64,000 nucleotides of DNA from a bacterium HR40 (GCA_002898275.1 BEIQ01000001.1:799899-863898); one strand, 5' to 3'. Positions 21,609 to 27,975 are shown, numbered from the stretch's first letter. Notes: generated by a model from the letters alone, not told the origin. Numbers and translations are program-made.

Positions 21609-22784
21609 ATGCGCAGCAGCTTGGCGGTGGCGGTGTCGATCCTGGCCCTCGCCACGGGAGTGGGCCAGGCGCAACAGGCAACCCAGGCACCGCCCGGTCA
21701 GGAGCGGCTCGACGTGACCGAGGAATGGTCCACGGTCACCCTGCCAGAAGCGAGCCCGCACTGGATCTGGGTGCTCGATGTCGCCTTCGACAATCTGATC
21801 GCGTCGCGCATCAACATCTTCGATGGCGACAGCGGCAAATTCCTCGGAGTGGTCCATTCCGGCTTCGTCCCCAATCTCCTGCTCTCTCCCGACAAACGCG
21901 AGATCTATGTCGACGAAACCTATTGGTCGCGCGGTTCCCAGGGCGATCGAGTCGACGTGGTCTCGATCTACGATGCGCGCACGCTCCTGCGCACCGGCGA
22001 GGTGATCCTGCCGCAGGGTCGAGCGCTCATCGTGCCCAAGCTGCCGACCGCGCAACTGAGTCCCGATGGCCGTTTCCTGTTATCGTTCAACATGAACCCG
22101 GCCACCAGCGTGTCGCTCGTGGACATTCGCGAACGCCGCTACGTCGGCGAGATCGAGACGCCGGGCTGCAGCTTTGTCTATCCGACCGGGCCGCGCAGTT
22201 TTTCGCTGTTGTGCCCGGACGGCTCGTTCGCCGACGTGACCTACGACGACTCGGGCCGGGCCCAGATCGCCAACAACCAACCCTTCTTCGACGCCGAAAG
22301 CGATCCGGTCTTCGAACATGCGGCGATCGATGTCGCCGGCGGCCGTGGCTACTTCCTCTCCTATGAAGGCATGTTCTACGAAGTCGCTTTCGAAAACGGC
22401 CGCACGCGCGTGACCGACCGCTGGTCGCTCACCACCGCCGAGGAAAAGGAAGACGGTTGGCGCCCGGGCGGCTGGCAGCTCGTCTCCTGGCACCCTGGGC
22501 TCCGCCGGGCGTTCGTGCTCATGCACCGCGGGCCGCGCTGGAGCCACAAGCAGCCAGGGGAGGAAGTCTGGGTCGTCGATCCCGAGGCCAACGCCATCGT
22601 CGACCGTTTCGCCCTCGAGGAGCCCTCGATCTCGCTCCTCGTCACCCCCGATGCCGAGCCGCTGCTCGCCACGCTGACCGACACTGGCGTCGTCGGCATC
22701 TACGATCCCGAGAGCGGCGAGCACCTGCGCAGCATCGACGGCACGGGAGTGACCCCCTTCCTGCTGCATGCGGCGGGCGGCTGA
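21609..22784 (+). CDS. mauB: Quinoprotein amine dehydrogenase, large (heavy) subunit
   Basis: A 391-residue periplasmic protein with a Sec-type signal peptide (ending near VGQAQ) and a seven-bladed YVTN-type beta-propeller. RINIFDGDSGKFLGVVHSG, YWSRGSQGDRVDVVSIYD, EEKEDGWRPGGWQ and the final DPESGEHLRSIDGTG match methylamine dehydrogenase heavy chains, while NPATSVSLVDI recalls aromatic amine dehydrogenase, so the amine substrate cannot be fixed. With the TTQ light chain it oxidises primary amines to aldehyde and ammonia. A GGGAGG site precedes the ATG. First gene of a tight B-E-D-A-cytochrome operon. Confidence 0.9.
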   Translation: MRSSLAVAVSILALATGVGQAQQATQAPPGQERLDVTEEWSTVTLPEASPHWIWVLDVAFDNLIASRINIFDGDSGKFLGVVHSGFVPNLLLSPDKREIYVDETYWSRGSQGDRVDVVSIYDARTLLRTGEVILPQGRALIVPKLPTAQLSPDGRFLLSFNMNPATSVSLVDIRERRYVGEIETPGCSFVYPTGPRSFSLLCPDGSFADVTYDDSGRAQIANNQPFFDAESDPVFEHAAIDVAGGRGYFLSYEGMFYEVAFENGRTRVTDRWSLTTAEEKEDGWRPGGWQLVSWHPGLRRAFVLMHRGPRWSHKQPGEEVWVVDPEANAIVDRFALEEPSISLLVTPDAEPLLATLTDTGVVGIYDPESGEHLRSIDGTGVTPFLLHAAGG

Positions 22785-22806
22785 GCGCCGGCGGGGAGGC
22801 CCACCG

Positions 22807-23340
22807 ATGATCGATCCGATCGTCTCCTGGGTGGCGCGGCTCCTCCTCGCCTCGATCTTCGCCACCGCAGCGACGGCGAAGCTGGCGGCGATGGGGCCCT
22901 TCGAGGGCATCGTGCGCAACTATCGCATCCTGCCGGAGCCACTCATTTCGCCCTTCGCTCGCGGCCTACCCTTCGTCGAGCTCGCGGCGGCCCTAGGCCT
23001 GCTCTTCGAGCCCACTCGGGAGGTCGCTGCCGGTGTCTGTGGCGCGCTGCTTTTGGCGTTCGCCATCGCGATGGCGATCAACATCCGGCGTGGCCGTACC
23101 GACATCGACTGCGGCTGCTTTGTCGGCCGCAGCCGGCAGCGCATCGGTTGGCCCCTCGTGGTACGCAATCTCCTGCTCCTTTTCGTCGCCGGCGTGGCTC
23201 TCGCGGAGCCGGCCGCGCGGCCGCTTTCGATCTTGGACTTCGCCGCCCTGATCGGTGCCACCCTGACACTGGTTCTCGTCTATCTCGCGCTCTCCCAGCT
23301 CCTCGAGCTCGCCCCTGTGAGGCGGGAGCGTACCCCATGA
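22807..23340 (+). CDS. mauE: MauE: membrane protein for amine dehydrogenase light-chain maturation
   Basis: A 177-residue inner-membrane protein of four or five helices of the MauE/DoxX-like group (WVARLLLASIFATAATAKL at the start; TDIDCGCF with two cysteines in a central loop). MauE and MauD are known to be needed for transport, folding or disulfide formation of the light chain. It begins 22 bp after mauB and its stop overlaps the mauD start (ATGA). Confidence 0.9.
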   Translation: MIDPIVSWVARLLLASIFATAATAKLAAMGPFEGIVRNYRILPEPLISPFARGLPFVELAAALGLLFEPTREVAAGVCGALLLAFAIAMAINIRRGRTDIDCGCFVGRSRQRIGWPLVVRNLLLLFVAGVALAEPAARPLSILDFAALIGATLTLVLVYLALSQLLELAPVRRERTP

Positions 23341-23978
23341 TGGAAGCCCTCGTCGTTTCGCAGATCTTGCTGTGGGTCGCTTTCGTCCTGCTGGCACTCG
23401 CGCTCTTTGCCCTCACCCGCCAGATTGGCGTGCTTCACGAGCGCATCGCACCCCTGGGCGCGCTCATGATGGATGGAGCCGTCGAGGTCGGCGACGCCGC
23501 GCCGAGTTTCGCCGTGCGCACGATCGACGGTCGGCCGGTCACTGTCGGGGGGGCGCGGGCCGACGGCAAGGCGCAACTCCTCCTTTTCGTCTCCCCGACC
23601 TGCCCGGTATGCAAGAAGCTGCTCGGCATTCTCCGCCCGTTCGCCAAGAGCGAAGGCGGCGCGCTCGAGATCGTGCTCGTCGGCGATGGCGAGCGGAGCG
23701 AACAGGAACGGATGATCCGCGAGCACCGGCTCGAGGGGCTCACCTATGTCATCGCCCCCGAGATCGGCATGCGATTACAGGTGGGGAAGCTGCCCTATGC
23801 CGTGCTGATCGACGAGCGCGGCATCGTGCGAGCGAAGGGGCTCGTCAATTCCCGCGAACATCTCGAGAGTCTGCTGGTCGCCAAGGAAACCGGCTATGCC
23901 AGCATCCAGGAGTATCTGTCGGCCCGCGGTGCCTCACCGGACGGCCAACCGGTGATGGCCGGCAAGCGGACCGCGTGA
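23337..23978 (+). CDS. mauD: MauD: thioredoxin-like protein for light-chain disulfide formation
   Basis: 213 residues: an N-terminal membrane anchor (about 8-28) then a periplasmic thioredoxin fold with the redox pair Cys89-Pro-Val-Cys92 (VSPTCPVCKKLL) and the cis-Pro loop near KLPYAVLIDERG. MauD is thought to form or rearrange the many disulfides of the TTQ subunit. Here the client has 14 cysteines in its predicted mature part. It overlaps mauE by 4 bp. Confidence 0.92.
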   Translation: MMEALVVSQILLWVAFVLLALALFALTRQIGVLHERIAPLGALMMDGAVEVGDAAPSFAVRTIDGRPVTVGGARADGKAQLLLFVSPTCPVCKKLLGILRPFAKSEGGALEIVLVGDGERSEQERMIREHRLEGLTYVIAPEIGMRLQVGKLPYAVLIDERGIVRAKGLVNSREHLESLLVAKETGYASIQEYLSARGASPDGQPVMAGKRTA

Positions 23979-24002
23979 GCATCGAGCGAGGGGGAAACCG
24001 AC

Positions 24003-24536
24003 ATGCAGCGCGAGACCGTCCTCGACCGGTGGATCGAGCGCCTGAGCCGGCGATTCGCCCAGCGCAGCTCGCGTAGGAGCCTGCTTGCGCGCCTCGGGGT
24101 GGCGCTCGTGGGAGGAGCTCTGCTGCCGCTCTTGCCGGTGGACCGCAGCGGCCAGTTCCGGCGCGCTCGGGCACAAGCATTCTTCGAGAACGCCCAGGCC
24201 GAGGACGACACCCAGTGCAACTACTGGCGCTATTGCGCCATGGACGGCTATCTCTGCACCTGCTGCAATGGCGGCGTCACCGCCTGTCCGCCAGGTGCCG
24301 AGCCCTCGCCCACCTCCTGGGTCGGCAGCTGCGTCAACCCCCAGGACGGCAACACCTACCTCATCGCCTACCGGGATTGCTGCGGCAAGGAGGTCTGCGG
24401 GCGCTGTCCGTGCCTGTCGACCGAGGGAGAGATGCCCGTCTACCGGCCGCAGCTGTCGAACGACATCGACTGGTGCTTCGGCGCCCGCAGCATGGTCTAC
24501 CACTGCACCGGCGCTGGCATCGTCGGCCGGGCATGA
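24003..24536 (+). CDS. mauA: Quinoprotein amine dehydrogenase, light (small) subunit with TTQ site
   Basis: A 177-residue precursor. A long leader with a twin-arginine motif (SSRRSLLARLG) ends near residue 58, as in known light chains. The residues that form tryptophan tryptophylquinone are present: Trp106 (PTSWVGSC) and Trp157 (NDIDWCFG), with the catalytic/maturation aspartates Asp81 (MDG) and Asp125 (AYRDCC). There are 14 cysteines, against 12 in Paracoccus-type methylamine dehydrogenase; the two extra ones sit where aromatic amine dehydrogenase has them (CTCC and EVCGRC). The second half (LSTEGEMPVYRP) is methylamine-dehydrogenase-like. Its stop overlaps the next start. Confidence 0.95.
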   Translation: MQRETVLDRWIERLSRRFAQRSSRRSLLARLGVALVGGALLPLLPVDRSGQFRRARAQAFFENAQAEDDTQCNYWRYCAMDGYLCTCCNGGVTACPPGAEPSPTSWVGSCVNPQDGNTYLIAYRDCCGKEVCGRCPCLSTEGEMPVYRPQLSNDIDWCFGARSMVYHCTGAGIVGRA

Positions 24537-25012
24537 GGCGACTTCCCGCCCTTCTCCTCGCCCTCCTCCCCTTCACCGGGCTTCCCGCGAGGGCGGAGCC
24601 GCGAGCTGTCACCTCGGTCACCGGCGTTGCCGAAGACTATGCTCGCAACTGCCAGGGCTGTCATCGCGAGGACGGCATGGGGGCTTTTCTCTCCGTGCCG
24701 CGGCTCAAGGACTTCGTCGGCCTGTTCGCCCATCTGCCCGAGGGTCGCGACTATCTGATCCGCGTACCCGGGGTGGCGTGGGCCATGCTCGACGACGAAC
24801 GGCTCGCCCGAGTGGTCAACTGGACCCTCCTCACCTTCAGTCGCGGCCAGCTGCCGGCGGAGTTCCGCCCCTATACCGCCGCCGAAGTCGCCAGGGCTCG
24901 TCGGCAGCCTCTCGTCGCGGTGCAAGCCACCCGTGCCCGGCTGATCGCGGCGCTCCAGGCGCGCGGTCTTCTGCCGCCGGGCGAGGACGGTCTGGTCTCG
25001 GCGAGACGCTGA
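24533..25012 (+). CDS. Monohaem c-type cytochrome, likely electron acceptor of the amine dehydrogenase
   Basis: 159 residues with a cleavable signal peptide (LLLALLPFTGLPARAEP) and one haem-binding site Cys40-Gln-Gly-Cys43-His44. Several Met residues downstream (for example in GMGAF and WAMLDD) could be the sixth ligand. It overlaps mauA by 4 bp (ATGA), so it is made with the enzyme. It occupies the place of the small monohaem cytochrome (orf-2) I recall in the Alcaligenes faecalis aromatic amine dehydrogenase cluster. No amicyanin or azurin gene is nearby, so this is the best candidate electron carrier. Confidence 0.85.
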   Translation: MRRLPALLLALLPFTGLPARAEPRAVTSVTGVAEDYARNCQGCHREDGMGAFLSVPRLKDFVGLFAHLPEGRDYLIRVPGVAWAMLDDERLARVVNWTLLTFSRGQLPAEFRPYTAAEVARARRQPLVAVQATRARLIAALQARGLLPPGEDGLVSARR

Positions 25013-25018
25013 CCCTCT

Positions 25019-26203
25019 TCAGCCGGCGAGCAAGCCCCGCGCTGCCAGATTGTGCAGCAGCGCTCCCGCGCCAAAGGTCCAAGGCGGAATGCGGTCGCAG
25101 CGCTCGACCCGGTTGACCAGCCGGCCGAGCCGCGGCGAATGGATCTCGACCACGTCGCCGACATGATGGGTGAAGCCGGCTCCGGGCGCGTCGCGATCCT
25201 CGGTCGGTGCGAACATGGTGCCGCACATCAGGACGAAACCGTCCGGGTATTGGTGCTGCGGGCCGATCGTCTGGGCCACGAGGTCGGCGATATCGCGGCT
25301 GATCTCGCGCATGGAACTGCAACCTTCGAGCCGGAAGCCGTCGTCCGCCCCCTCCACCTGCAGCCGCACCTCTGCCTGTCGCACATCGTCGGGATCGAAA
25401 TGCTCGTCGAAGAGACGGATGAACGGGCCGATGGCCGCCGAGCCGTTGTTGTCCTTTGCCCGCCCGAGCAGCAATGCGCTGCGTCCCTCGAAATCGCGCA
25501 GATTGACGTCGTTGCCGAGGGTCGCACCGCGCATGCGCCCGCGACTGTCGACCACCAGCACCACCTCGGGCTCCGGATTGTTCCACGCACTCTCCGGGTG
25601 TATGCCGATCTCGGCACCGTGACCGACCGCCGCCATGGGCTGGCATTTGGTGAAGATCTCGGCATAGGGCCCGAGCCCCACCTCGAGATACTGCGACCAA
25701 GCGCCGATGGACCGGAGATGGTCGCGCAGTCGTTCGGCCTCGAGCGAGCCGGGCCGAATGGCGGCGAGCGATCCGCCGATCCGCGCCTCGATCTCGGCTC
25801 GCACCGCCGCTGCCCGTTTCGGATCGCCCCGCGCCTGCTCCTCGACCACGCGCTCGATCAGGCTCTTGGTGAAAGTCACCCCTGCCGCCTTCACCGCTTG
25901 CAGATCGCACGGAGCCAGCAGATGCGGTCGCGCGAGCGTCCGCCGATCCCAGCGAGAATGGGCGACGAGCTCCTCGAGGCTGCACAGACGCGGCGCCGCC
26001 GCGTGGCGCGCGATGGCCACCGCGTCTTCGCGCTCGCAGAGATCCCGCACGGTCGGGACGATGGCCGTGAGGTCGACGACCTCGTCGCCCCGCACGGCGA
26101 TCACCGCCGGACCCTCGGGCTGCGAGGCAATCCAGGCACGCCCGATCAGGGTGGCCCGCTCCGCATCCTCGGGCAGCGTTGCGCGAGCCGTGAATTCCAC
26201 CAT
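25019..26203 (-). CDS. Fumarylacetoacetate hydrolase family protein
   Basis: A 394-residue protein. The C-terminal half has the FAH fold metal and substrate segments PEPEVVLVVDSRGRMRGATLGNDVNLRDFEG and CSSMREISRDIADLVAQT. Members cleave C-C bonds in fumarylacetoacetate or acylpyruvates, or decarboxylate/isomerise dicarboxylic intermediates; the substrate is not evident. The longer N-terminal region (about 150 residues) marks the subgroup. It follows the acyl-CoA ligase gene by 29 bp and converges on the cytochrome gene with only 6 bp between stops. The open frame runs far upstream as an antisense artefact; the ATG at 26203 is used. Confidence 0.85.
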   Translation of the reverse strand: MVEFTARATLPEDAERATLIGRAWIASQPEGPAVIAVRGDEVVDLTAIVPTVRDLCEREDAVAIARHAAAPRLCSLEELVAHSRWDRRTLARPHLLAPCDLQAVKAAGVTFTKSLIERVVEEQARGDPKRAAAVRAEIEARIGGSLAAIRPGSLEAERLRDHLRSIGAWSQYLEVGLGPYAEIFTKCQPMAAVGHGAEIGIHPESAWNNPEPEVVLVVDSRGRMRGATLGNDVNLRDFEGRSALLLGRAKDNNGSAAIGPFIRLFDEHFDPDDVRQAEVRLQVEGADDGFRLEGCSSMREISRDIADLVAQTIGPQHQYPDGFVLMCGTMFAPTEDRDAPGAGFTHHVGDVVEIHSPRLGRLVNRVERCDRIPPWTFGAGALLHNLAARGLLAG

Positions 26204-26232
26204 CCTCCTCCCCCTTCGTCTGCCCTGCCGGC

Positions 26233-27894
26233 CTAGAGGGTCTTCGCCCGTTCGCGCAGAACGAACTTCTGGATCTTGCCGGTCGAGGTCTTGGGCAGCG
26301 GCCCGAAAACGATGTATCTCGGCACCTTGTAGCGCGCGATCTGGGTGCGCAGGAATTCCATCAGCTCTTCCGCCGTCACCGTGGCCCCTTCGCGGAGGGT
26401 GACGAAGGCGCAGGGGGTCTCGCCCCATTTCTCGTCGGGTTTGGCCACCACTGCCGCCTCGAGGACATCCGGATGGCGGTAGAGAGCGGCTTCCACTTCG
26501 ATGCTCGAGATGTTCTCGCCGCCGGAGATGATGATGTCCTTGGCGCGATCCTTGATCTCGACATAGCCGTCCGGGTGCATCACCGCCAGATCGCCGGTGT
26601 GGAACCAGCCGCCGGCGAAGGCCTCGGATGTCGCTTTCGGGTTGCGCAGGTACCCCTTCATGACGATGTGACCGCGCATCATGATCTCCCCGAGAGTGGC
26701 CCCGTCCGCCGGAACCGGCTGCATGGTCGCCGGATCCATGACCTCGAGACCCTCGAGCACCGGATAGCGCACGCCCTGGCGGGCGAGCCGCTCGGCCCGC
26801 TCGCGCGGCGCGAGGGCGCTCCACTCCGGCTTGACCTCGCACACCGTGGCCGGGCCGTAGACTTCGGTGAGGCCATAGACGTGGGTGACCTCGATCCCGA
26901 GCGCTGCCATCTTTTCGAGCACCGCGGGCGGCGGCGCCGAGGCCGCCGTCATCATGTGCACCTTCTGGCCGAAGGGCTGGCGCACTTCCTCTGGCGCGTT
27001 GACGATCATGCCCATCACCACCGGCGCGCCGCAGAGATGGGTCACACCATGGTTGGCGAAGGCGTCGTAGATGGTCCGACTGTCGACCCGGCGCAGACAG
27101 ACGTGAACCCCCGCCTGCAGCGTCACCGTCCAGGGGAAGCACCAGCCGTTGCAATGGAACATCGGCAACGTCCAGAGATAGACGGGAAAATGCGGCATCT
27201 GCCAGACGAGGACATTGCCGATGGCGTTGAGGTAGGCGCCGCGGTGATGATAGACGACACCCTTGGGATTGCCGGTCGTGCCGGAGGTGTAATTGAGGGC
27301 GATCGCCTGCCATTCGTCGGCGGGGAAATACGGGAGAAAATCGGGATCGCCGCTTTGCAGGAATTCCTCGTAGGTGACATCCCCCAGTCGCTCGTGCGGA
27401 CCGGAAAAGGCCTCGTCGAGAATGTCGACGACGAGCGGCCGTTCCGGCAGCCGGGCGAGTGCCTCGCGAATCACCGGGGCATATTCGGTGTCGGTGAGGA
27501 GCGCGCGGGCGCGGCCATGTTCGAGGATGAAGGCGATGGTGGCGGGATCGAGCCGCACGTTCAGGGCGTTCAACACCGCCCCGGCCATCGGCACGCCGAA
27601 ATGAGCTTCGAGCGCAGCGGGGATGTTGGGCGCCATGACGGCCACCGTGTCGCCCGGGCGGATGCCGGCTCGTTCCAGCGCCGAGGCCAGTCGGTGGCAG
27701 CGCTCGCGCAGTTCGCCATAGGTCCAGCGGCGCGCGCCATGGATCACCGCCAGCCGCTCCGGGTGGACGTCGGCCGTGCGCTCGAGGAAGGTGAGCGGTG
27801 TGAGCGCCGCATAGTTCGCCTCGTTGCGATCGAGGTCGAGGGTGTAGGGATTGCCTTGGGGGTGCGTGCACAGCCTCGGTTTCCGGCGTAGCAT
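26233..27894 (-). CDS. AMP-forming acyl-CoA synthetase
   Basis: 553 residues of the ANL superfamily. The P-loop-like motif is NYTSGTTGNPKGVVYHHRG, followed by YGLTEVYGPATVCEV, GWFHTGDLAVMHPDGYVEIKDRAKDIIISGGENIS and the catalytic lysine segment KTSTGKIQKFVLRERA. It activates a carboxylic acid via an acyl-adenylate; the group includes medium-chain and methylmercaptopropionate ligases, so chain length is open. The ATG at 27894 has a GGAGG site; the frame opens earlier at 27972. It is probably cotranscribed with the FAH-family gene. Confidence 0.92.
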   Translation of the reverse strand: MLRRKPRLCTHPQGNPYTLDLDRNEANYAALTPLTFLERTADVHPERLAVIHGARRWTYGELRERCHRLASALERAGIRPGDTVAVMAPNIPAALEAHFGVPMAGAVLNALNVRLDPATIAFILEHGRARALLTDTEYAPVIREALARLPERPLVVDILDEAFSGPHERLGDVTYEEFLQSGDPDFLPYFPADEWQAIALNYTSGTTGNPKGVVYHHRGAYLNAIGNVLVWQMPHFPVYLWTLPMFHCNGWCFPWTVTLQAGVHVCLRRVDSRTIYDAFANHGVTHLCGAPVVMGMIVNAPEEVRQPFGQKVHMMTAASAPPPAVLEKMAALGIEVTHVYGLTEVYGPATVCEVKPEWSALAPRERAERLARQGVRYPVLEGLEVMDPATMQPVPADGATLGEIMMRGHIVMKGYLRNPKATSEAFAGGWFHTGDLAVMHPDGYVEIKDRAKDIIISGGENISSIEVEAALYRHPDVLEAAVVAKPDEKWGETPCAFVTLREGATVTAEELMEFLRTQIARYKVPRYIVFGPLPKTSTGKIQKFVLRERAKTL

Positions 27895-27975
27895 GGGTCC
27901 TCCCTGCCTCGGCCGCGGGGCCGCCCGCGCGGACGTCGACATCCGCGCAGGTGATGGGACGCGCGGTTCCACGCG

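Follow-up and report, generated by a model that had tools for sequence, protein, structure and literature searches.

The DNA analysed here (the window) is a stretch of 64,000 nucleotides from bacterium HR40 (BEIQ01000001.1:799899-863898), and positions are counted from its first letter. Between positions 21,609 and 25,012 its plus strand carries five genes that overlap or nearly so, as had been claimed in the initial annotation and as is borne out by their coordinates and family matches. The first gene, B (21609..22784), encodes the heavy chain of a TTQ amine dehydrogenase and possesses a Sec-type signal peptide and the heavy-chain beta-propeller domain (PF06433 Me-amine-dh_H, 192 bits against a cut-off of 21, 1.3e-56). 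It is followed by E (22807..23340), coding for a MauE-like membrane protein (PF07291 MauE, 108 bits, 4e-31) whose preferred start is MIDPIV at 22807, with the earliest possible one at 22768; it is the single MauE copy of the whole genome. D (23337..23978) overlaps E by 4 bases and specifies a MauD-like, membrane-anchored thioredoxin-fold protein with a CPVC motif, which scores above the cut-off of TIGR02661 (229 bits) and is recognised by Pfam as thioredoxin-like. The light chain is encoded by A (24003..24536; PF02975 Me-amine-dh_L, 174 bits, 2e-51; TIGR02659, 231 bits versus a cut-off of 197). With an overlap of 4 bases (ATGA), it is succeeded by C (24533..25012), the gene for a small periplasmic c-type cytochrome with the haem motif C40-Q-G-C43-H44 (CQGCH) and a weak match to Pfam Cytochrome_CBB3; the remaining gaps within the operon are about 25 bases long. 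This order, proposed earlier to be aau-like, equals that of the annotated aauB-mauE-mauD-aauA-cycA-cycA genes on a P. aeruginosa plasmid (LT969519). Convergent genes for an FAA-hydrolase-family protein and an acyl-CoA ligase-like protein come after the operon (25019-27972 of the window) and may serve aromatic acid breakdown.

The light chain A contains the TTQ pair Trp106 and Trp157, which our alignment places 51 residues apart as in methylamine dehydrogenase (MADH), keeps the catalytic Asp125 at +19, and has a twin-arginine signal and 14 cysteines. Two of these, at about Cys88 and Cys132, are extra relative to MADH, making an additional disulfide possible; 14 cysteines are likewise present in the second light chain of this genome (L001:2520-3080). 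From these genes, the product of the operon is predicted to be a periplasmic TTQ amine dehydrogenase of the aau-like type. Compared with PDB entries, the heavy chain B matches those of MADH (2.7e-56) and of aromatic amine dehydrogenase (AADH; 2.8e-52). As it is no nearer to the A. faecalis AADH than to MADH, an aromatic substrate is unsupported by the score, and the term aau type refers to the gene layout. Like the P. aeruginosa aau cluster, the window's cluster presents B-E-D-A and then a cytochrome, both TTQ tryptophans and the aspartate, and none of the mauFGLMN genes; unlike that cluster, it has one cytochrome instead of two, and another B-A pair, in stripped form, lies elsewhere in its genome. 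The B, E, D, and A genes are also homologous to those of the mau cluster of P. denitrificans. The window's cluster differs from it, however, in being devoid of mauC, mauJ and napGH-like (mauM/mauN) genes, in belonging to a genome without mauF and mauG, and in a heavy chain that remains far below the cut-off of the MADH equivalog TIGR02658 (194 versus 454 bits).

TTQ is formed from two tryptophans of the very enzyme that uses it. MauG is the textbook TTQ synthase and, to our knowledge, the sole enzyme known to build this cofactor; nor do we know of an answer to the question how MauG-less enzymes make TTQ. The initial annotation had noticed that no MauG is encoded near the operon, and had left two alternatives: either the maturation genes are elsewhere, or another enzyme crosslinks the tryptophans. 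It had suggested a genome-wide search for MauG, the di-haem peroxidase family and mauF, which we have run on the complete genome (2.89 Mb, 8 contigs, 100% complete, 0.08% contamination) and which recovered none of them. PF03150 (CCP_MauG) and TIGR03791 (TTQ_mauG) each had zero matches in the whole genome, although both searches gave hits in E. coli, the positive control, and no MauF was found in a search that detected it in all four methylamine-dehydrogenase control genomes and in the relative G282. A location elsewhere is thereby ruled out for MauG, the di-haem peroxidase family and MauF; what remains is another crosslinking enzyme, for which the neighbouring cytochrome C is a concrete candidate. 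The bare absence of mauG is nothing new, because the A. faecalis aau cluster was reportedly noted, by Chistoserdov in 2001, to be without mauFGLMN. The new point is the cytochrome C without a Met loop, while the layout itself is ordinary.

A profile built from 57 C proteins matched Thermus cytochrome c552 (1.4e-21) in two blocks. Its positions 17-57 align with residues 10-50 of the c552 chain, and 64-119 align with 75-130, with 6 residues of C replacing 24 in between. The stretch missing from C, about 18 residues, covers Met69, the axial ligand of c552. Outside the CxxCH motif, no His, Met or Lys is conserved in half of the 57 C homologues at any position; two Cys positions just reach half of the sequences, in one part of the family, and two Tyr positions accept Phe. 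A conserved distal acid/base pair was not recognised in C. The AlphaFold2 model of C (pLDDT 93.7) found its best fold matches by VIA-align in c552 structures (Z 10-11.5), and no PF03150-type chain was among the VIA-align matches listed. C thus resembles the c552 of Thermus thermophilus in its fold, the CxxCH and GRxYL motifs and a C-terminal extension, but is devoid of the loop holding the axial Met69. Set against the c552-like class I cytochromes c, C has the fold and the CxxCH motif without the axial Met loop; set against the MauG family, it has one CxxCH and not the two present in the CCP_MauG domain. Since the axial-Met loop is lost and no other ligand residue is conserved, its sequence suggests that the haem of C is probably open, as in MauG, although another residue or a partner protein could supply the sixth ligand.

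Other cytochromes adjoining these clusters have kept the Met. In six of the clusters (from Acetobacter, Asaia, L120, P. aeruginosa, Cupriavidus, and Paracoccus) a Met-bearing c552 paralogue is located between A and C, and C is still present there. Ferruginivarius sediminum (L015:10519-11421) has a Met-bearing c552 domain fused to a Met-less C domain, resulting in a two-haem protein that is encoded immediately behind the light chain, in a reading frame that begins where A has its stop codon. The Acetobacter and Asaia loci (L063 and L083) also have a second MauD-like gene, on the opposite strand and just behind the cytochromes.

Our scan of named genomes yielded 80 loci, added to later, and most of the scanned loci display the order B-E-D-A-C; the notion that the layout is a rarity was rejected as this is the common form. 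Counted by its haem motif, C is present at 84 loci, or 82 after two duplicate views were dropped, and mauG was found at none of these 82 distinct clusters. Conversely, mauG occurs without C at 11 loci (L036, L050, L072-L075, L080, L085, L118, L128, and L132), of which L128 is that of P. denitrificans with an annotated MauG, while the gene at L132 is annotated just as a cytochrome c peroxidase. Clusters with both C and mauG were not encountered, and six loci have neither: a gene pair on contig C4 of the window's own genome (see below), L013, L014, L016, L017, and L069. L014 and L069 depart from the rule that light chains are accompanied by C or MauG. The former belongs to a draft MAG in which a B-A pair occurs without C and without PF03150. 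The latter, from the isolate Hyphomicrobium sp. D-2, has the methylamine-type arrangement mauF-B-E-D-A-amicyanin-J; its locus is devoid of mauG, and its genome does not encode any protein of MauG grade. The position of C directly after A is the one held by MauG in Methylobacillus, and C is retained where E and D do not adjoin (L028, L045, L049, and L054). When we sought maturase candidates, no neighbour beyond the five operon genes was found to recur across all lineages.

PF03150 is absent from 16 of the 43 other genomes with C-type clusters, and seven of these 16 are isolates (Marinimicrococcus flavescens, Sandarakinorhabdus oryzae, Novosphingobium sp. FKTRR1, N. nitrogenifigens, Sphingomonas spermidinifaciens, S. 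adhaesiva, and S. oleivorans). Not one of the 27 C-cluster genomes that do have a PF03150 protein reaches the MauG cut-off; the four genomes that exceed it each have mauG beside their cluster. C was not found in nine methylamine-type (MADH) genomes. Both systems co-exist in G282, a relative from the window's own family, which carries a C cluster (L121) and, on a separate contig, a mauF-B-E-D-A-J-mauG cluster without C (L118). Among 385 alphaproteobacterial genomes drawn evenly, a light chain exceeded its cut-off in 12, belonging to six families, and a strong match to C was present in the identical 12 and in no others; PF03150 is absent from six of them. The C profile scores in these 12 genomes range from 96 to 175 bits with the next best at 35 bits; the first look covered at most ten candidates per genome, by which weak C homologues elsewhere may be missed. 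Completeness ratings cover the genome of the window and the drawn ones, but not those reached via named loci.

A tree of B, which was computed with a quick method, has some long branches and is unrooted, unites all mauG clusters and L069 in a single clade (support 100). The remaining lineages, among them a Binatota MAG and that of the annotated aau cluster, either possess C or belong to the clade of stripped B-A pairs, the sister clade of the window's group. Because the mauG clusters form one clade, the complementary pattern of C and mauG amounts to essentially one evolutionary switch. The C form is thus the widespread one, and the two systems were swapped about once, in a direction that the unrooted tree leaves undecided.

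The second B-A pair of this genome (G000), which is without E, D or C, lies on contig C4 at about 239156-240906 (L001:1330-3080), so that the genome contains two light chains and two heavy chains, and one MauE and one C. The light chain of the C4 pair is 71% identical to that of the window and its heavy chain 53%, and the TTQ residues are kept in the light chains of both. The pair is divergent from adjoining PaaA/PaaC-family genes for phenylacetate degradation, which hints at phenylethylamine-like substrates. Such phenylacetate-type oxygenase genes were dismissed as a maturase, as they are absent beside the other B-A pairs. Stripped B-A pairs are also present at four related MAG loci (L013, L014, L016, and L017), and for three of these relatives a full C cluster is found in the same assembly (L006/L016, L009/L013, and L011/L017).

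From the distribution of C, its missing Met loop and the absence of MauG, we infer that C may be the maker of TTQ. The explanation that we tentatively put forward, as a serious possibility that falls a little short of being probable, is that of a periplasmic aau-type dehydrogenase whose TTQ is built without MauG and in which C replaces this enzyme. The light chain A would be exported via its twin-arginine signal, and D and E, by analogy with MauD and MauE, would supply disulfides and fold the Cys-rich light chain, which would then pair with B. C would be exported as well and subsequently be fitted with its c-type haem, whose iron, to judge from the protein's sequence, is most likely five-coordinate and reactive with H2O2 or O2. 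A ferryl-type C could then act through the protein on the pre-TTQ tryptophans of A, oxidising them and completing both the hydroxylation and the Trp106-Trp157 crosslink in the manner of the five-coordinate haem of MauG. Where a Met-bearing c552 paralogue or fusion partner exists, it might act as an electron relay, akin to the six-coordinate haem of MauG. The window's E, D, and C proteins would also serve the C4 pair and mature it in trans. The likeness to MauG hence would consist in the proposed role, in one open haem and, for the A-c1-C tandems and the L015 fusion, in a two-haem arrangement. It does not extend to the architecture: C is a single-haem protein of the c552 fold, a fold that MauG does not have.

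The distribution would also fit C having taken the place of another electron acceptor, and the main rival to our proposal is that C receives the electrons of the dehydrogenase as its physiological acceptor, or relays them to it, with TTQ being made by an unlinked and unrecognised enzyme. C is, after all, a c552-fold class I cytochrome, operons often carry an acceptor gene, e.g., amicyanin in P. denitrificans, and the window's cluster contains neither an amicyanin nor an azurin gene. The family-wide loss of the Met loop would, however, be unusual for an electron carrier; moreover, C is kept beside a Met-bearing c552 paralogue that is seemingly fit for electron transfer, and the other neighbouring cytochromes retain their Met. 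We therefore regard this alternative as unlikely, but it still stands because the switch between C and mauG happened about once. P. denitrificans has its own mauG, and in work from 2005 attributed to Hothi, recombinant aauBEDA expressed there with orf-2, coding for a monohaem cytochrome that may or may not be C, reportedly gave a TTQ enzyme. This result is compatible with C as the maturase and does not decide the matter.

Two further alternatives would leave C without a part in the chemistry or assign it an accessory one. We know of no enzyme identified as adding the first hydroxyl group in MADH. An enzyme encoded elsewhere, be it a flavin monooxygenase of the QhpG/GoxB kind or some unknown oxygenase, might complete TTQ, and the related CTQ cofactor is indeed built by flavoproteins (PMC7876137). 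Yet QhpG works inside the cytoplasm, while in MADH the making of TTQ comes after the light chain has been exported to the periplasm (PMC7876137), and only B, E, D, A, and C recur beside the clusters across all lineages; we consider this route improbable. Other quinone cofactors such as TPQ are made by self-processing, and TTQ might equally form by itself in these light chains through O2 or H2O2, perhaps aided by stray haem, with D and E responsible for folding only. The light chains of L014 and L069, which are without C or a MauG-grade protein, would fit such a process. It is nevertheless a very improbable one, given that C accompanies every light chain in the even draw and that MADH light chains with the same TTQ residues require MauG (PMC6405878; PMC7876137).

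Returning to C as the TTQ maker, the proposal might reach beyond this bacterium. With somewhat more reserve than for the window itself, we suggest that outside one methylamine-dehydrogenase clade TTQ may be completed by a small c-type cytochrome devoid of the Met loop, in some cases paired with a Met-bearing sister or joined to it in one chain, as a MauG-like two-haem machine that arose by convergence, and that MauG would then be the exception. If this is true, a protein of about 15 kDa oxidises another protein by several electrons, which is a demanding reaction, and an electron carrier would have been turned into a catalyst by the deletion of one loop.
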